Shown here piece by piece: positions 2,782-15,543 of a stretch of DNA of 22,985 bases. Origin of the DNA: Erythrobacter sp. UBA2510. Lineage in GTDB: Bacteria; Pseudomonadota; Alphaproteobacteria; Sphingomonadales; Sphingomonadaceae. The notes below the pieces were generated by a model. That model saw nothing but the letters and a program-made list of their open reading frames with translations. It made no database searches and was not told the origin of the DNA. Where the stretch lies: contig DDNW01000112.1 of the NCBI GenBank assembly GCA_002341345.1, positions 8,296 to 31,280 on the forward strand. The letters run 5' to 3'. Position numbers and translations under genes: made by a program. Every line of letters starts with the position of its first letter. Position 1 is the stretch's first letter.

Positions 2782-3531
2782 TCATGCCGAGGCACCGCCG
2801 CGCCGTGCCGCAATCAGGAATTCCAGATTGCCCTCGCTGCCCTTGATCGGGCTTTCGGTCAGGCCGAGGATGGTCCACCTCTCCCCTTCGAGCCAGTCGC
2901 GCACCTCGTCGCAGACCCGGGCATGGAGCGCCTCGTCGCGTACGATGCCGCCCTTGCCGACTTCGCCCTTGGCCACTTCGAACTGCGGCTTGATCAGCGC
3001 CACCAAAGTGCATTGCTCTTCCGCCAGAATAAGCGGCATTTCCAGCACCTTGCGAAGCGAAATGAAGGATGCGTCACAGACCACCCAGTCGCATGACCGG
3101 TCTATCTGCAAGGGCGTGAGGTGGCGGGCATTGGTCTGTTCGAGGACGGTAATCCGGTCATCTTGCCGCAACTTCCAGTCGAGCTGGTTGGTCCCGACAT
3201 CGACCGCGAAGACATGCGCTGCGCCATGCGCCAGCATGACCTGCGTGAACCCGCCGGTTGAGGAACCGATATCCATCGCGACGGCGCCCGTCGGATCGAG
3301 GCCGAAGTGCCTGATCGCATGATCCAGCTTCACCCCGCCGCGCCCGACCCAGGGATGATCGCGGCCCCTGACCACGATCTCGGCATCTTCGGCGACCTGC
3401 TGGCCGGGCTTGTCCACCCGCCGCTCGCCCAGAAACACCACGCCTGCCATGACCAGCGCGGAGGCGCGGGCGCGGCTTTCGGCATGGCCTTGCTCGACGA
3501 GCAGCTGATCGATGCGGCGTTTGGCGCTCAT
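2782..3531 (-). CDS. tlyA: TlyA family rRNA (cytidine-2'-O)-methyltransferase / hemolysin-like protein
   Basis: TlyA proteins 2'-O-methylate cytidines of 16S and/or 23S rRNA using S-adenosylmethionine. The 249-residue product starts with an S4 RNA-binding domain (about residues 1-60: RIDQLLVEQGHAESRARASA). An FtsJ/RrmJ-type methyltransferase domain follows: GRGGVKLDHAI, the SAM-binding VAMDIGSSTGGFTQVML, VCDASFISLRK, ALIKPQFEV and SEGNLEFL. The spaced Lys (GGVK), Asp (CDAS), Lys (IKPQ) and Glu (GNLE) match the catalytic tetrad of the family. The frame is open further upstream to 3645, but the start at 3531 (MSAKRRIDQLL) matches the family N-terminus. The 5' leader contains a hairpin GCAAGC-GGGTT-GCTTGC (3563-3579). 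The gene stands alone, with 175 bases to tspO and a long gap on its 5' side. Confidence 0.93.
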   Translation of the reverse strand: MSAKRRIDQLLVEQGHAESRARASALVMAGVVFLGERRVDKPGQQVAEDAEIVVRGRDHPWVGRGGVKLDHAIRHFGLDPTGAVAMDIGSSTGGFTQVMLAHGAAHVFAVDVGTNQLDWKLRQDDRITVLEQTNARHLTPLQIDRSCDWVVCDASFISLRKVLEMPLILAEEQCTLVALIKPQFEVAKGEVGKGGIVRDEALHARVCDEVRDWLEGERWTILGLTESPIKGSEGNLEFLIAARRGGASA

Positions 3532-3733
3532 TGCGGCGGGGTTAGGGAGAAGTTCGGCGGATGCAAGCGGGTTGCTTGCCGGAACCTTGCGCGAAGCCTT
3601 AATTCTGACTGTGAAAAACAAAAATACAAGACTTGTCTTCGCCATCGGGACGATTCACAAAGGCACTCAAGACCGGCGGCACTCGCGGTCTTCGCCCACC
3701 CAATGAAACGGCCGGGCGTGGCTTTCCAAGCGC

Positions 3734-3748
3734 GAAAGGAGGTGATCC
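3734..3748 (+). promoter_or_regulatory. Extended Shine-Dalgarno, complementary to the entire 16S rRNA 3' tail
   Basis: The 15 bases GAAAGGAGGTGATCC are the exact complement of the conserved 16S 3' terminus (GGATCACCTCCTTTC in alphaproteobacteria), far longer than a usual four- to six-base site. GGAGG (3738-3742) lies seven bases before an ATG at 3750, an ideal spacing. The 5' part can pair with CTTTC at 3722-3726. The match stops exactly at the 16S tail and the flanks do not resemble rRNA, so this is not an rRNA fragment. Confidence 0.7.
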
Positions 3749-3749
3749 G

Positions 3750-3806
3750 ATGTCTCATGGTTCAGCAGGGAGGTCGGTGACGACCCGCGCGGAGCATATT
3801 CGGTAA
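3750..3806 (+). CDS. Possible 18-residue peptide behind an extreme ribosome-binding site
   Basis: The ATG follows the 15-base Shine-Dalgarno sequence at seven-base spacing. The frame encodes MSHGSAGRSVTTRAEHIR and ends at TAA. The peptide is basic, with no membrane segment or signal peptide, and I recognise no family. Two alternatives overlap in another frame: a 25-codon frame from 3703 that has no Shine-Dalgarno, and its internal ATG at 3757, which would give seven residues. Because the ribosome site fits 3750 best, that start is preferred. The coding content itself is too short to judge. The ORF may matter as a ribosome-loading or leader ORF rather than for its product. Confidence 0.4.
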   Translation: MSHGSAGRSVTTRAEHIR

Positions 3807-3862
3807 TTCTGACTTTCGCCGAGTAAGGCTTCGTGAGCGGTCTACCAGACCGCTGACCATGC

Positions 3863-3903
3863 GAAGGGTCGTTTGGCTTGAGGCCAAGCGGCCCTTCTCA
3901 TTT
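3863..3903 (+). terminator. Strong intrinsic terminator of the small transcript
   Basis: Arms GAAGGGTCGTTTGGC (3863-3877) and GCCAAGCGGCCCTTC (3883-3897) form a 15-pair stem with a few G-U pairs and a TTGAG loop. They are followed by TCATTTT and then GGGGTTTT. The T-tract lies on the plus side; the minus side of the stem has no T-run, so it terminates the plus-strand unit ending here. Confidence 0.8.
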
Positions 3904-3984
3904 TGGGGTTTTGCAAAGGTGGCCGGTTTTTGGGGTGGGAAGCGGACTTTGGGGGAGGGTTATTTATAGTGATAACGTTCTGCG

Positions 3985-4227
3985 ATGATCTATAACATTA
4001 TTGACCGCCGCAAACGCCCCTAACGGTGGCGCGAGGTGTACGCGATTATCGAAGTTACCAGTCACGATAATTCCTGCGCAGATGCCGACCAGCAGCCCGC
4101 AGTGGATGACGACATCATTTACGATCAGCGCGAAAACATCTCGCTGCATGAGGCTGCTGTGTGGGCAACAAGCGTTCCGTGCGCTGTCACGCTCTACCTT
4201 TACGACAAGGGCAACGGCACCTCGTAG
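3985..4227 (+). pseudogene. Small ORF broken by an in-frame TAA (hypothetical protein)
   Basis: From ATG at 3985 the frame reads MIYNIIDRRKRP, meets TAA at 4021-4023, and continues in the same frame as RWREVYAIIEVTSHDNSC and on to a natural stop at 4225-4227. It would be an 80-residue protein apart from that one stop. The downstream part can start at GTG 4036 (63 residues, ending YLYDKGNGTS), but neither start has a good ribosome-binding site. The product is acidic in the middle (PAVDDDIIYDQREN), soluble, and belongs to no family I can name. The region is more AT-rich than its neighbours. The simplest reading is a recently inactivated gene, with a one-base change such as TAC to TAA; a sequencing error or a shorter GTG-started gene are the alternatives. 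Confidence 0.55.
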
Positions 4228-4265
4228 CCAACATCCGCAATTGGGTCGTAAGCGGAAAGTCGAAG

Positions 4266-4664
4266 CTAATGCAGCGCGCCACCCGATTCCGGCGCATCAG
4301 GCCCGAGAATCCGCCGCGCCTCGCGCATCATCACCTCGGTCGCCACGGGCTTGACCAGATAGCCATCGGCGCCAGCGCCCGTCACCTCTTCCCGCACGTC
4401 ATCGGTGGCATAACCCGAAATCGCGAGAATCGGGATCGCGGCGGTGGTCGCCTGTGCTTTCAGCTGCTCGATCAGTTCAAGGCCGGATACATGCGGCAGG
4501 CCGATATCCATCATGATCAGATCGGGGCAAAAGCGCCCCACTGCGGCCAGCACCTGCGCCCCGTCGGCGACCAGCTCGGTCTCGAACCCGTCAATGCGCA
4601 GCGATTCCTCGAACAGGAGGCCATTGAGGGCGTCGTCCTCGACAATGAGTACGCGGCTGGTCAT
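4266..4664 (-). CDS. Single-domain response regulator (CheY/DivK-like receiver)
   Basis: A 132-residue stand-alone receiver domain with the full phosphoacceptor set: acidic pocket E9-D10-D11 (LIVEDD), phosphorylated Asp D53 (LIMMDIGLP), Ser at about 83 (LAISGY) and Lys K105 (GYLVKPV). No output domain follows, so it acts by protein contact or in a phosphorelay, as DivK and CheY do. The MMDIGLPHVSGLE stretch is DivK-like, but no histidine kinase lies nearby, so the partner is unknown. It diverges from the patatin gene over 206 bases. The upstream stretch holds two GANTC sites (GACTC at 4665 and GATTC at 4712), the CcrM methylation target of alphaproteobacteria. No clear Shine-Dalgarno precedes the ATG. 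Confidence 0.91.
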   Translation of the reverse strand: MTSRVLIVEDDALNGLLFEESLRIDGFETELVADGAQVLAAVGRFCPDLIMMDIGLPHVSGLELIEQLKAQATTAAIPILAISGYATDDVREEVTGAGADGYLVKPVATEVMMREARRILGPDAPESGGALH

Positions 4665-4812
4665 GACTCATATACGTATTTTCACATTATTCGATCCCGG
4701 ATTTCTCAAGCGATTCAACATTTTGTTAAGGATCGCGAGCCGCCCCGCTCCACGGATCAGGCTAAGAACGGGTCAGTCGCTTACTAATCCCCGGAACCGA
4801 ATCACTGTTCAT

Positions 4813-4841
4813 TTGTCGTGCAGCGGCAACCGGTGTATGTT
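4813..4841 (+). promoter_or_regulatory. Predicted promoter of the patatin gene
   Basis: A TTGTCG box (4813-4818), a 17-base spacer and TATGTT (4836-4841) resemble a housekeeping sigma promoter. The leader to the ATG at 4871 would be about 23 bases and includes AGAAGG (4853-4858) as ribosome-binding site. Read by eye only. Confidence 0.45.
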
Positions 4842-4870
4842 GCAATGCAGCATAGAAGGTCTGTGCCCTC

Positions 4871-5911
4871 ATGAAAAACTTGCTTCCCCCGCAACGACTC
4901 GACGTCGCCCTGCAAGGCGGTGGCGCGCATGGCGCCTTCACCTGGGGCGTGCTCGACCGGCTGCTCGAAGCGCCCGACATCCGCATTTCGGCCGTCAGCG
5001 GGGCCAGTGCCGGGGCAATCAACGCGACCGTCTTCGCCACCGGCATGGCGACGGGCGGACCGGCAGGCGCGCAGGCCGCTCTCGCCGCCTTCTGGAAGGC
5101 GCTGAACGATGCGGGGCGTGATTCCGGGCCGCTGCTGCCGCTGCTCGAAGCGTTTCCGGAAACCGCCGAACTGGCCGTGACCTGGTGGTCGCTGCTGTTT
5201 GGCGACGTTCCCCTGCCCAATTCGCCACGTCTCGGGAAACCGATACAGGACGTATTGCGCAAATTGCTGGAGGAGCATGTTGACTTCGCCGCGCTGCGCA
5301 CACGCAAGGCGCCGCGCCTGTTCATCGCCGCGACCAATGTGCGGACCGGGGGCGCGCGCATCTTCCGTAATGACGATCTCAGCGTCGACGCATTGCTCGC
5401 CTCGGCCTGCCTGCCACTGGTCTTCCCGCCGGTGACGATCGACGGGGCCGAGTACTGGGATGGCGGCTATAGCGCGAATCCGCCGCTGCTGCCGCTGGTC
5501 CTGGAAAGCCCGAACGATGATTTGCTGCTGATCACGATCAACCCGACCACGCGCGAGCAGACTCCGTCCTCCTCGCGCGATATTTCCTACCGGATTTCCG
5601 AGCTCGGCTTCAGTCAGGGGCTGGCACAGGATTTGCGCGGGCTCGACATGATCCAGAAGGCAGCCGCCCCGCTATTGCTGGCGCGCGGCGTGCTGGGGCG
5701 ACTCAAACGCCTCAGGATGCACGAGATCCATGACGAGCCGACGCTGGCGGCGATGCATCCACGCTCGAAAATGGTGCCCGCCTGGCAGATGCTCACGCAG
5801 TTGCATGCCGCAGGACGCGAGGCCGCCGACCAGTGGCTGGGCGAGGATGCGCATTACATCGGCAAGGCAAGCACGATCGACATCTCCCAGCGTTACGGGA
5901 TCGCATCCTAA
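4871..5911 (+). CDS. Patatin-like phospholipase family protein
   Basis: Serine lipid acyl hydrolase of the patatin family, using a Ser-Asp dyad. The 346-residue product shows the oxyanion glycine-rich loop GGGAHGAF (about 16-23), the nucleophile elbow GASAG (44-48, Ser46) and the catalytic Asp in a DGG motif (YWDGGYSANPP, Asp197). No signal peptide or membrane segment is seen, so it is probably cytosolic or peripheral at the inner membrane. It belongs to the common bacterial group related to RssA/YlbK-type proteins, whose substrates are mostly not defined. The start is supported by AGAAGG upstream and by the short distance to the oxyanion loop. It is divergent from the response regulator and is followed 88 bases later by ilvE, which appears to have its own promoter. 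Confidence 0.93.
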   Translation: MKNLLPPQRLDVALQGGGAHGAFTWGVLDRLLEAPDIRISAVSGASAGAINATVFATGMATGGPAGAQAALAAFWKALNDAGRDSGPLLPLLEAFPETAELAVTWWSLLFGDVPLPNSPRLGKPIQDVLRKLLEEHVDFAALRTRKAPRLFIAATNVRTGGARIFRNDDLSVDALLASACLPLVFPPVTIDGAEYWDGGYSANPPLLPLVLESPNDDLLLITINPTTREQTPSSSRDISYRISELGFSQGLAQDLRGLDMIQKAAAPLLLARGVLGRLKRLRMHEIHDEPTLAAMHPRSKMVPAWQMLTQLHAAGREAADQWLGEDAHYIGKASTIDISQRYGIAS

Positions 5912-5999: not shown

Positions 6000-7106
6000 A
6001 TGGCGACTGTGCCCGCCCTGACCTTCACGCATTTGCCCCACCCCTCGCCGACCAGCGACGAGGTACGCGAGGCGGCGATCGCCGCGCCCGGCTTCGGTAC
6101 GGTGTTCACCGACCACATGGTGTCGATCGATTGGGATGAAGGCCCTGATGGCATTGGTGCGTGGCACAACGCCACGATCGGCCCGCGCGTGCCCATCGCG
6201 CTCGATCCGGCGGCGAGCGTGCTGCACTATGCGCAGGAGATTTTCGAAGGGCTGAAGGCCTACCGCCTCGCCGATGGCACGATGGCGCTGTTTCGCCCGG
6301 AGGCAAATGCGGCGCGCTTCAACGCCTCGGCCCGGCGCCTCGCCATGCCCGAACTGCCCGAAGAGACCTTCATCGAGGCGGTGCGCCTCGCGGTCGCAGC
6401 CGATGCCGACTGGTTTCCGACCGTCGAGGGCGGTTCGCTCTACATCCGGCCCTTCATGTTCGCCAACGAGCATTTCCTGGGGGTGCGTCCGGCGAAGAAG
6501 TACAAGTTCCTCGTGATCCTCTCGCCGGCCGGCAATTACTTCAAATCCGGCGCGCCCGCGGTCAGCGTCTGGGTGTCGGACTATACCCGCGCGGCCCCCG
6601 GCGGCACGGGCGCGGCCAAGTGCGGCGGCAATTACGCCGCCAGCCTCGTCCCCACCAAGGAAGCGTTCGAACGTGGCCACGATCAGGTCGTGTTCCTCGA
6701 CGCTGCCGAACACAAATGGATCGAGGAACTGGGCGGCATGAACCTGTTCTTCGTCTTCGAAGACGGCACCATGGTCACCCCGCCGCTGTCAGGCACGATC
6801 CTGCCGGGCATTACCCGCGACAGCCTGATCGCGCTCGCCCGCGAGGAAGGGCTGACCGTGCGTGAGGAAAAATACAGCATCGACCAGTGGCAGGCTGACG
6901 CCGCCAGTGGCAGGCTGGTCGAGACCTTCGCCTGCGGCACCGCCGCCGTGGTCACCCCGGTCGGCCGTGTGGCGGGCCGCGAGCACGACTTCACCATCGG
7001 CAGCGGCGGTCCGGGGCAATTGACGACAAAGTTGCGCGAAAAGCTCGTGGCGATCCAGCGCGGCGCAGCCGAGGACCGGCACGGCTGGGTAATGAAACTG
7101 GGCTGA
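6000..7106 (+). CDS. ilvE: Branched-chain amino acid aminotransferase
   Basis: PLP-dependent class IV (fold type IV) aminotransferase that interconverts leucine, isoleucine and valine with their 2-oxo acids using glutamate/2-oxoglutarate. The 368 residues match the longer BCAT type (eukaryotic/actinobacterial-like) rather than the roughly 310-residue E. coli form. Landmarks are LHYAQEIFEGLKAYR (about 75-89), YIRPFMFANEHFLG (148-161), the PLP-binding Lys207 in GTGAAKCGGNYAASL, the family stretch WIEELGGMNLFFVF, and PLSGTILPGITRDS with CGTAAVVTPVG. It would complete leucine synthesis with the leuB encoded 5 kb away on the other strand. Near 6884-6917 a 14-base stretch is repeated 20 bases later in a different frame. 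Confidence 0.96.
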   Translation: MATVPALTFTHLPHPSPTSDEVREAAIAAPGFGTVFTDHMVSIDWDEGPDGIGAWHNATIGPRVPIALDPAASVLHYAQEIFEGLKAYRLADGTMALFRPEANAARFNASARRLAMPELPEETFIEAVRLAVAADADWFPTVEGGSLYIRPFMFANEHFLGVRPAKKYKFLVILSPAGNYFKSGAPAVSVWVSDYTRAAPGGTGAAKCGGNYAASLVPTKEAFERGHDQVVFLDAAEHKWIEELGGMNLFFVFEDGTMVTPPLSGTILPGITRDSLIALAREEGLTVREEKYSIDQWQADAASGRLVETFACGTAAVVTPVGRVAGREHDFTIGSGGPGQLTTKLREKLVAIQRGAAEDRHGWVMKLG

Positions 7107-13166: not shown

Positions 13167-14153
13167 TCACGGTGCCCCGCGTGGGATCGTTGCCCGCGCC
13201 ATGATCAGTGAGAAGTGGCCATCTGCATCCAGCCAGCGCGCCTGCGGTGTCCAACCGCCCGCCAGCAACAGCATATTGGAGCTGCGCCGCCCGAACTTGT
13301 GGCTGTTTTCGGTATGGATCGTTTCCCCCTCGCGCATGGTGAAGGGTTTGCCCGTGACGGTAAAACGCAGATCCCGTGTGGCAACGAGGTGCATCTCGAT
13401 CCGGGCATAAGTGTCGTTCCAAATCGCCCGGTGACGCAGTGCCTCTACCGGAATCGTGCCGTCCAGCTCGCGGTTGATGCGCTCGACCATGTTGAGGTTG
13501 AAGCGCGCGGTTACCCCTTGGGCATCGTTATAGGCGTTAAGCAGCACGCTGCGCTGCTTGATCAGATCCATCCCGATCAGCAGCATCGCGTCATCGCCCA
13601 GCGTGGCCCGCATGGTGCGCAGCAGATCGACCGCCGTGCGCGCTACCATATTGCCGATGGTCGATCCGGGAAAGAAACCGAGCCTGGGCAGATCGGCAAT
13701 CTTACCGGGCAATTCCACCCGGCGGTTGAAATCAGCCTCTACCGGCAGGATCGGCAGGTCGGGAAATTTCGTCGCCAGTTCGGCGGAGGAAGCGCGCAGG
13801 AAGTCCCCGGCAATGTCGAGCGGGACATAGGCCGCCGGATCGATGGCGCGCAGCAGCAGTGGCGTCTTGACCGAGGAACCGGAACCGAATTCGACCACTG
13901 CCCGCCCCGGCCCGGCCAGCGCGGCGATCTCGCCCGCACGCGCCTTCAGAATGCTCGTCTCGGCACGGGTGGGGTAATATTCGGGCAGGCGTGTAATCTC
14001 TTCGAACAGGTGCGAGCCGGCCTCGTCATAGAACCAGCGCGCCGGAACCGCCTTCTGCTCCTGCGAGAGCCCCTCCAGCACATCGGTCCGAAATGCCTTG
14101 TCTACGCCCTGCTCGTCGCGTTCGACGAGTTGCAAGCCTTCGCTAGCGGCCAT
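13167..14153 (-). CDS. egtD: L-histidine N(alpha)-methyltransferase
   Basis: EgtD trimethylates the alpha-amino group of L-histidine with S-adenosylmethionine to give hercynine, the first step of ergothioneine synthesis, in the cytosol. The 328-residue product has the family hallmarks: ARWFYDEAGSHLFEEITRLPEYYPTR split across about 38-64, the SAM-binding VVEFGSGSSVKT (87-97), VPLDIAGDFL, the FFPGSTIGN motif (160-168) and IHTENSHKF, whose Glu and Ser contact the substrate amino group in studied homologues. A longer open frame extends upstream, but ATG 14153 fits both the family N-terminus and the two-base gap after egtB. Translation is probably coupled to egtB. Confidence 0.94.
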   Translation of the reverse strand: MAASEGLQLVERDEQGVDKAFRTDVLEGLSQEQKAVPARWFYDEAGSHLFEEITRLPEYYPTRAETSILKARAGEIAALAGPGRAVVEFGSGSSVKTPLLLRAIDPAAYVPLDIAGDFLRASSAELATKFPDLPILPVEADFNRRVELPGKIADLPRLGFFPGSTIGNMVARTAVDLLRTMRATLGDDAMLLIGMDLIKQRSVLLNAYNDAQGVTARFNLNMVERINRELDGTIPVEALRHRAIWNDTYARIEMHLVATRDLRFTVTGKPFTMREGETIHTENSHKFGRRSSNMLLLAGGWTPQARWLDADGHFSLIMARATIPRGAP

Positions 14154-14155
14154 AA

Positions 14156-15445
14156 TCAGAGGTCCTTGGCAAGCCTGACGCCGGTGAATTGCCAGCGCTG
14201 GTGAGGATAGAAGAAATTGCGATAGCTGGCGCGCGAATGGCCGCGCACGGTGGCGCAACTGGCGCCCTTGAGCACGCACTGGCCGGACATGAACTTGCCG
14301 TTATATTCGCCCACCGCGCCTGCGGCAGGGCGATAGCGCGGATACGGCAGATAGGCCGAGCGGGTAAACTGCCAGCAATCACCGAACAGCGCCGAGCCGC
14401 CGCGCGGCATTGGCGGAGCCTCGCACCCGGCAGGATGATCGAGCTGGTTGCCCGTCGCCGGGTCCGATCCCTCGGCCCGAGCGATCGCCTCCCACTCGAA
14501 TTCGGTCGGTAGCCGCGCCCCTGCCCAAGTTGCGAAGGCATCGGCCTCGTAATATGAAATATGCGTGACCGGCGCGTCCGGCTCCCGCGCCTGCCAGCCC
14601 TGATGCGTGAAATGCTCGCCCCCCGTTTGGCCGTCGCGCCAGTAAAGCGGGGCCGATATCGCATTGGCCTTGACCCATGCCCAGCCGTCGGACAGCCACA
14701 GCGAAGGCGTGGTGTAGCCGCCATCGGTAATGAACGCTTCCCATTCGCGATTGGTGACGAGGCTGCGCGAAAGGGCGAAGGGATCGAGCAGCACGCGGTG
14801 GACCGGCCCTTCGTTATCGAAGGCAAACCCTCCGGGCTTCTCGGAAGACAGCATGCCGATGCGGGCCATGCCCCCCGGATGCTCGAGCCATCCCGCTACC
14901 GGGGCGGCAATTGCGGAGGTCTCCTGCCATTGCCACATGGCCGGACCGAGCGGGTTCTGGTGCAGGGCATGTTTGATGTCGGTAAGCAGCAGTTCGGCAT
15001 GTTGCTGTTCGTGCGCTATGCCCAGCGCGACCAGATCGGCCAGCGCGGGGTCCTCCAGCAAGGGTGCCATGGCGGCATCGACATGGGCTCGCCAGTCGAG
15101 AATTTGCGCAACGCCGGGCCGCGACAGCATGCCGCGACGGTCGCGCGCGATCCTTGCCCCTTCGGTCTCGTAATAGGAATTGAACAGATAGGGCCACTCG
15201 TCATCGAACAGTCGATAGCCGGGCAGGTAGTCGCGTAGCAGGAAGGTTTCCCAGAACCACGTAGTATGCGCCAGATGCCACTTGGCAGGCGAGGCATCCT
15301 CCATCGACTGGATTGTCGCGTCTGCCTCGCTCAGCGGAGCGGCCAGCGCTTCGCTGAGCTGGCGGGTGGTGGCAAAGCGTGCGGCCAAACTGGCGGACGC
15401 AGCTGTGCTGTCATCGTCGATTGAGCGGGACTGGGCTTCAGGCAC
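14156..15445 (-). CDS. egtB: Hercynine oxygenase / sulfoxide synthase EgtB
   Basis: Non-haem iron enzyme that joins a thiol (gamma-glutamylcysteine or cysteine) to hercynine with oxygen, giving the sulfoxide precursor of ergothioneine. The N-terminal DinB-like domain holds the iron ligands: His60 in KWHLAHTTWFWE, and His145/His149 in the HX3HXE motif AHEQQHAELL. The C-terminal part is a formylglycine-generating-enzyme-like sulfatase fold (TNREWEAFITDGGY, ARLPTEFEWEAIAR, then WQFTGVRLAKD). The frame opens with TTG at 15460, but GTG at 15445 has AGGAG six bases upstream and is preferred (429 residues). Whether it uses gamma-glutamylcysteine is undecided, since no egtA, egtC or egtE is nearby. 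egtD follows after two bases. Confidence 0.94.
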   Translation of the reverse strand: MPEAQSRSIDDDSTAASASLAARFATTRQLSEALAAPLSEADATIQSMEDASPAKWHLAHTTWFWETFLLRDYLPGYRLFDDEWPYLFNSYYETEGARIARDRRGMLSRPGVAQILDWRAHVDAAMAPLLEDPALADLVALGIAHEQQHAELLLTDIKHALHQNPLGPAMWQWQETSAIAAPVAGWLEHPGGMARIGMLSSEKPGGFAFDNEGPVHRVLLDPFALSRSLVTNREWEAFITDGGYTTPSLWLSDGWAWVKANAISAPLYWRDGQTGGEHFTHQGWQAREPDAPVTHISYYEADAFATWAGARLPTEFEWEAIARAEGSDPATGNQLDHPAGCEAPPMPRGGSALFGDCWQFTRSAYLPYPRYRPAAGAVGEYNGKFMSGQCVLKGASCATVRGHSRASYRNFFYPHQRWQFTGVRLAKDL

Positions 15446-15543
15446 GGCGCGCTCCTGCAAACTGTGGGAGGCACATGCACCATCGCCCCCACTTCCACCG
15501 GGTCAACCCATGGTGTGGCCAGCCGTTCCGAGCTGCGCAGATG

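Follow-up and report, generated by a model that had tools for sequence, protein, structure and literature searches.

A candidate translation-gated RNA of Sphingomonadaceae related to the Caulobacter RNA CC2171

Introduction

The Caulobacter RNA CC2171, represented in Rfam by the family RF01867, was reportedly first identified in 2008 by Landt and colleagues. In the RF01867 consensus structure (CS line), a long-range helix, CAUUGUC/GACAAUG, closes the domain ahead of the terminator. The RNA MH_s33 of Mesorhizobium huakuii has been assigned to this family, and the passages on these RNAs in the same source report RNA-seq reads for 34 of 35 predicted non-riboswitch RNAs, MH_s33 being among the 35 and MH_s6 alone lacking reads (PMC5596092). 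In the open-access literature, we found neither a function in print for RF01867/CC2171 nor a description of an ORF in the CC2171 RNA, which is not proof that this ORF is unpublished.

The Sinorhizobium trp attenuator RNA, rnTrpL, ends in a terminator. Like the RNA analyzed here, it is a small alphaproteobacterial RNA with a short ORF, translated in the case of rnTrpL (PMC10117765, PMC7298713). As characterized in the passages concerned, rnTrpL has a leaderless start (PMC10117765), encodes a functional leader peptide and corresponds to the tryptophan attenuator (PMC10117765, PMC7298713); none of these three traits is seen in the window RNA. Extended, start-proximal Shine-Dalgarno (SD) pairing on small ORFs, another point of likeness, is described in Staphylococcus aureus, where one such sORF is regulatory via ribosome pausing (PMC13009471). 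However, the regulatory example given there serves as the uORF of a gene that follows it, in a different phylum, whereas no such gene follows the window RNA.

Here we analyze a window of 22,985 nucleotides (the whole stretch of DNA under study) from Erythrobacter sp. UBA2510, contig DDNW01000112.1, and compare its RNA unit with related loci across Alphaproteobacteria.

Layout of the locus and relation to RF01867

The RNA unit and its immediate surroundings in the window comprise the following features:

2782-3645, minus strand: tlyA-like gene with S4 and FtsJ domains
3627-3635, plus strand: palindrome CAAGACTTG over the -35 region, with TTG at 3633-3635
3640-3910, plus strand: RNA unit, with the tlyA-like gene on one side and the response regulator on the other, both on the minus strand
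3652-3656, plus strand: GATTC, a GANTC (CcrM-type) site just 5' of a weak -10-like CACAAA (3656-3661)
3668-3694, plus strand: 5' leader hairpin (hairpin 1), from sequence and fold
3726-3894, plus strand: full-length match to RF01867 (CC2171), 55.5 bits, E 5.1e-11, gathering score 75
3734-3748, plus strand: extended SD GAAAGGAGGTGATCC, a 15-base complement of the 16S tail
3750-3806, plus strand: 18-codon ORF MSHGSAGRSVTTRAEHIR, start ATG at 3750, TAA included in the coordinates
3756-3766, plus strand: P1 5' strand; the six tested pairs are at 3756-3761 (codons 3-4), the remainder to codon 6 being inferred
3772-3777, plus strand: P2 5' strand GGTCGG, which extends the rod; pairing in 82.3% of the cells of the 85 rows, with the window copy having one mismatch
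3836-3854, plus strand: H3 hairpin AGCGGTCTACCAGACCGCT, alternative to P1/P2 and part of the minimum-energy fold of the window RNA
3852-3861, plus strand: P1 3' strand GCTGACCATG, immediately 5' of the terminator
3863-3897, plus strand: intrinsic terminator stem-loop, with a T-rich tail to about 3905
4266-4664, minus strand: response regulator

The order of hairpin, SD, 18-codon ORF, second hairpin and terminator, which had been described in a sequence-only reading of this DNA, was both read directly and located by script. The terminator stem of that reading is present, with 16 pairs by scan rather than the 15 given there. The segment 3664-3906 folds with a z score of -5.2 against 200 shuffles, and searches for tmRNA and tRNA found neither at the RNA locus. 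Hairpin 1 is present in the clade of the window, and many other clades have a short leader instead.

The sequence-only reading recognized no described family. At a permissive threshold, however, RF01867 matches it over all 159 model positions (55.5 bits, E 5.1e-11); because this score falls short of the gathering score of 75 bits, a default Rfam scan lists nothing at the locus. The two RNAs have in common the alignment along model positions 1-159, the same GAAAGGAGGTGATCC, the position of the start codon, the P1 helix, the terminator and an intergenic location. The GAAAGGAGGUGAUCC motif at the 5' end of RF01867 is found in the window copy, and the long-range helix recurs as CAUGGU/ACCAUG, that is, with compensatory change, although in the window copy it is not the minimum-energy fold. 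Unlike RF01867, the branch that includes the window RNA has ATG in many members in place of GTG, a different P1 sequence, a longer leader (in the clade of the window) and the CAAGNCTTG/GANTC promoter; its ORF has 18 codons compared to mostly 20-26 in the loci of the other type. From these alignments, we call the window RNA a putative divergent Sphingomonadaceae branch of CC2171-type RNA.

Relatives of this RNA were found across Alphaproteobacteria. Within the class, the RF01867 model matched 61 of 289 genomes at E<=0.001, and 9 of the 289 scored above the cut-off. A covariance model built from both the Sphingomonadaceae type and the CC2171 type (R1) was positive in 61 of 147 genomes of the order, every one from the window's own family, and in 50 of 299 genomes of the phylum, a tally that includes five SD-only rows of 23 bases and four rows of 43 bases, to which we give little weight. 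Of these 50, 49 fall within the class (12 in the window's own family), and the single match outside the class is weak (27.8 bits). In three sphingomonads (G091, G576 and G578), a Sphingomonadaceae-type copy coexists with one of the CC2171 type, so that the two types look like paralogous lines of one RNA. In these genomes, the second, CC2171-type copies (L046, L310 and L312, beginning MSHCH... or MSHCF...) are at a separate locus.

The Shine-Dalgarno sequence

As the sequence-only reading had proposed, the SD GAAAGGAGGTGATCC is an exact 15-base complement of the alphaproteobacterial 16S tail GGATCACCTCCTTTC, as read from one Rhizobium and one Rhodobacter record. As typed, the 16S-tail query matches 211 plasmid records, 15 of them from Sphingobium. 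The assembly of the window gave no reverse-strand match for the 16S tail, and alphaproteobacterial plasmid records served as the reference; a search for SSU rRNA in a complete same-genus genome returned none, and the single hit of a further 16S-tail search was the RNA unit itself. Because a complete genome gives no SSU rRNA at all, the rRNA genes are probably masked. The predicted duplex energy of the 15-bp SD/16S helix is -26.8 kcal/mol, compared to -8.7 for GGAGG alone.

The sequence AAAGGAGGTGATC occurs once in the window's assembly (both strands searched) and is single-copy also in each of three same-genus genomes. Of 199 family genomes, 146 contain the pattern AAAGGAGGTGATCCNATG, compared to none with the reversed control; the family is taken to be Sphingomonadaceae from named loci that encode a similar kind of peptide. 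The earlier description of a unit around a maximal SD is supported, and this unit is self-contained and conserved. The long SD is present at all loci read, with few bases changed at most. Sequestration of the SD by a 16S-tail mimic within the ORF (CTGGATC in Rhizobiales) was considered and set aside as weak (mean z of -1.2 for 87 loci and -1.4 for 117 loci against shuffles), and is kept as a hint.

Start, length and stop of the ORF

The Sphingomonadaceae-type set comprised 126 loci, reduced to 117 after removal of duplicates. The truncated L128 and three Azospirillum loci (L162, L189 and L201) were left out; the latter carry, under the same perfect SD, a gene of 57-59 codons with a secretion-signal-like start (MSHGA...) that is apparently unrelated. 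The 117-locus set kept only ATGTCTCATGG after the SD, so these letters are fixed by selection of the set and are tested instead in 90 loci fetched on SD+NATG. One locus search gave at least 120 stretches, 80 of them as loci.

The frame from the ATG spans 15-21 codons in all 117 distinct Sphingomonadaceae-type loci, and in 96 of them the stop is exactly at codon 19 (TAA 55, TGA 32, TAG 9), where TGG occurs in 0 of 117. The ends of the two other frames are scattered from codon 5 to codon 148, with 2 and 4 loci, respectively, open past 600 bases. All 33 family loci found with the model (L242-L274) start with ATG and have 18 or 19 codons. Among 87 distinct loci of the other type, a count that includes L295 (a 43-base row with 14 codons), 85 have 18-27 codons, compared to 7 and 12 when either of the remaining frames is read. 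The start codon in these 87 loci is GTG in 64 and ATG in 23, but 37 of them were fetched by a pattern that demands RTG and provide no test of the start codon; the 50 loci found by the covariance model alone have GTG in 29 and ATG in 21, with an ORF of 18-27 codons in 49.

Because the stop is fixed at codon 19 in most Sphingomonadaceae-type loci and the length is held at 18-27 codons in the other type, whereas other frames scatter, the ORF looks translated and appears, from this comparison, to be selected to begin and end where it does. The sequence-only reading had also suggested a ribosome-binding RNA or a sensor of free 30S subunits; such a role without elongation is less likely because the stop codon is under selection.

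The encoded peptide

From codon 6 onward, pN/pS is 1.02 in the Sphingomonadaceae type (45 pairs) and 1.12 in the other type (17 pairs), and the same count in wrong frames gives 0.75-0.84; these values come from a simple count of synonymous versus non-synonymous differences, made in a small number of close pairs that are disjoint. Purifying selection on the amino acid sequence, as expected of a small protein, is thus absent from two separate sets, which speaks against a highly translated micropeptide, proposed earlier, as the product that matters. In the comparison of codon selection with SD conservation that had been suggested along with it, the SD is conserved and the codons lack amino acid selection.

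When family loci are fetched by SD+NATG only, 89 of 90 read ATGTCTCATGGT, and TCG stands at codon 9 in each of the 96 loci that stop at codon 19; both are fixed down to the wobble base, as expected from constraint on the RNA. L027 is one base shorter than its close relative L028 and has a different C-terminus, yet the frame stops after 20 codons. Judging from these comparisons, the peptide is probably not the point of the ORF: since ORF length is conserved and protein sequence is not, passage of the ribosome over the RNA, rather than the peptide, is suggested to matter.

Secondary structure

Structure was compared in an alignment of 85 of 122 selected sequences (50 of 84 Sphingomonadaceae-type and 35 of 38 others). 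The make-up of this alignment reflects choices: a plain P1 was the reason for including 43 of 68 other-type loci, 3' arms were identified from their pairing or, in the Sphingomonadaceae type, by GACC(C)ATG, and both covariance models include P1. L036 and L183 were excluded for misplaced ends, L163 and the remainder were left out to limit size, and no P1 arm was obtained for L125, L043, L048 and L186.

In the 85 rows, codons 3-4 pair with a segment before the terminator (P1) in 99.6% of cells. P1 and P2 together are paired in 91%, and in 17-47% when the partners are slid by 1-3 columns. Column 28/228 of P1 is GC in 50 sequences, UA in 31, CG in 3 and other in 1, a compensatory change between clades. 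H3 is paired in 78.2% of cells compared to 73.8% when shuffled, so its comparative support is weak; H3 and P2 use the same 3' bases.

P1 was also sought independently of the alignment, by scanning the region 61-170 bases past the start for a segment able to form seven pairs with ORF bases 7-13 (codons 3-5). Such a 7-pair partner is present in 56 of 87 loci of the other type, well above shuffles (mean 6.9, maximum 13); with Watson-Crick pairs only, 38 of 87 have one, compared to 0.7 (maximum 3). In the remaining 31 of the 87, this simple scan does not see a 7-pair P1. GACC(C)ATG follows the ORF in 115 of 117 Sphingomonadaceae-type loci, and the remaining two run out of sequence; 106 of the 115 share an identical CCGCTGACCATG, a constancy beyond what pairing requires.

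The window RNA folds into local hairpins at -87.2 kcal/mol, compared to -81.8 with P1 enforced, a gap of 5.4, and H3 remains in the fold when the start region is blocked in silico. Minimum-fold predictions include P1 for 54 of 115 Sphingomonadaceae-type sequences and lack it for the window RNA. Given two folds of similar energy and P1 in the minimum fold of these 54 sequences, bistability of the RNA is predicted, and the window copy would favor the open form.

The stop codon precedes the P1 3' strand by 36-125 nt and never by less (n=115), so that a ribosome halted at the stop should not cover that strand. In Sphingomonas-like loci (L305-L308, L311, L177, L131, L159 and L190), an insert of about 95-125 nt is found between the stop and the P1 3' strand. 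These inserts share a similar hairpin, of the kind GGGGGGTATCCTCCCCCAATCAACG, and the insert of L305 also contains GGATCACCTCC, identical to the 16S tail. An enrichment of CCTCC in the long inserts was considered and is not convincing (12 of 28, compared to a shuffle mean of 5.4 and maximum of 13).

Promoter region

An exact CAAGNCTTG is present within 170 nt upstream in 98 of the 117 distinct Sphingomonadaceae-type loci. A GANTC follows this palindrome at a spacing of exactly 16 nt in 73 of the 98, just 5' of a CACATT-like -10; the full CAAGNCTTG-N16-GANTC arrangement, at 3627-3661 in the window, is thus seen in 73 of 117. Anywhere in the tested 14-nt interval, GANTC occurs in 78 of 98 loci (shuffled mean 4.1, maximum 11), with the variable base being C in 30, T in 29 and A in 19.

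GANTC is the site of CcrM, and GcrA binds methylated GANTC (PMC7987155). As stated in the passages on this regulon, an extended motif, YGAKTCK, has been proposed for the GcrA/CcrM regulon of C. crescentus, and Brevundimonas subvibrioides lacks such a preference (PMC7987155). The Sphingomonadaceae-type loci do not match YGAKTCK, a motif from C. crescentus, because A comes after the GANTC site (in 97 of 98 loci). A conserved promoter GANTC, as expected under GcrA/CcrM control, is found in Sphingomonadaceae only; because the site is rare at the comparable place outside the family (16 of 83 loci), methylation control would be a family-level proposal. A GANTC promoter as a trait of the whole RNA family was ruled out on the same count.

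Gene neighborhood

The first recognized same-strand gene 3' of the RNA in the window is a patatin-like gene at 4871, and the 117-codon frame at 4001-4354 matched no Pfam family. The sequence-only reading saw no conventional gene downstream; this stands for the same strand of the window up to 4871 but not for the family, where 21 of 30 loci have ilvE downstream on the same strand, with the match to it beginning some 220-870 bases past the SD. TlyA is upstream in 20 of the 30, and 7 have neither TlyA nor ilvE; these counts rest on 30 of the 146 family loci with the SD pattern. At 28 loci of the class outside the family, neither gene was found within roughly 1.5 kb. In the window, a response regulator on the minus strand and the patatin-like gene (together 4266-5911) separate the RNA from ilvE, which starts at 6000.

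The frequency of ilvE in the family would suggest a leader or attenuator of this gene. A strong terminator nevertheless separates the two, other genes precede ilvE in the window, 7 of the 30 family loci and all 28 loci outside the family lack it in the range searched, and runs of Ile, Leu or Val are missing from the window peptide. The RNA is its own unit rather than a leader; the ilvE leader, which calls for a conserved regulated gene directly downstream where none is found, was rejected on synteny, and we consider it exceedingly improbable.

Possible functions

By sequence comparison, the RNA is defined by a maximal SD, fixed start and stop positions, a P1 helix in the majority of members, a terminator and a peptide sequence that appears free to vary. 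We tentatively propose, at somewhat less than even chances for the whole chain, that it is a translation-gated riboregulator, the Sphingomonadaceae branch of CC2171-type RNA. Transcribed independently, at a length of about 200 nt, it would serve as a minimal mRNA and a riboregulator together. The SD would take up the whole free 16S tail, loading ribosomes at the ATG or GTG, and codons 3-6 would form the P1 strand of a long hairpin, with the partner strand just 5' of the terminator. P1 would open under a ribosome that sits on the start codon or crosses the 18-27 codons, which would release the 3' strand and allow the local hairpin H3 to form; leaving at the stop, short of the 3' half, the ribosome would keep that half ribosome-free. 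When initiation is scarce, P1 would close. The opening of P1 would be the output, with the freed 3' strand or H3 acting on an RNA or protein partner. Counted against this proposal are the minimum folds, which contain P1 for only 54 of 115 sequences and lack it for the window, the 31 of 87 loci missed by the scan, the bias of alignment and models toward P1, the weak support for H3 and the few pairs behind pN/pS. A broader version, which we regard as rather unlikely, would extend to the RNA of the whole class: the ORF would be solely a ribosome carrier, with ribosomes loaded by the full anti-SD match and let go after a fixed number of codons, the peptide being of no consequence, and the RNA would sense free ribosomes or initiation capacity and signal in trans via the P1 3' strand, timed by CcrM in Sphingomonadaceae.

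The same SD, maintained at every locus read, together with a structure that starts at codon 3 so that initiation complexes could wait, would fit a ribosome decoy, in which 30S or 70S initiation complexes are held by the 15-bp helix while P1 slows elongation, sequestering or marking idle 30S subunits. A decoy requires no stop at a set distance, yet the stop is at codon 19 in 96 of 117 loci and the length is 18-27 codons in 85 of 87; with a single copy per genome, very high expression would also be required, and we judge this explanation unlikely. A conventional trans-acting sRNA, with the 3' strand or the H3 loop pairing with mRNAs and the ORF only protecting or timing the RNA, agrees with the sRNA-like size, the terminator, the mostly single copy, the changing neighbors, the cataloguing of RF01867 as an sRNA and the constancy of CCGCTGACCATG beyond pairing needs. 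By itself, it leaves the maximal SD and the set ORF length unexplained, and appears distinctly unlikely. The H3 loop is ACTTCC before GGCCGCTGACC in 52 of 117 loci.

A functional micropeptide, whether from a small-protein gene or from a dual-function RNA with an active peptide, would account for the selection on start, frame and stop and for the shared N-termini MSHGS and VSHCH. These N-termini, however, coincide with the P1 strand, where wobble bases are fixed too; pN/pS is about 1 in two sets, above the control frames, and the C-terminus of L027 is altered relative to that of L028. We therefore consider this explanation highly unlikely. Under the preferred reading of a translation-gated riboregulator, if the conserved feature of RF01867 is a translated ORF with an unselected peptide, the family would offer a clean natural case of ribosome passage as a regulatory signal, in an RNA small enough for testing in Caulobacter. 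Such a case bears on how tightly gene control can follow ribosome supply and, in sphingomonads, also the replication-linked methylation cycle.

Elsewhere in the window, two adjacent ORFs on the minus strand (13167-15460; 370 and 434 codons) resemble the ergothioneine pair egtD/egtB, as judged by eye from their translations.
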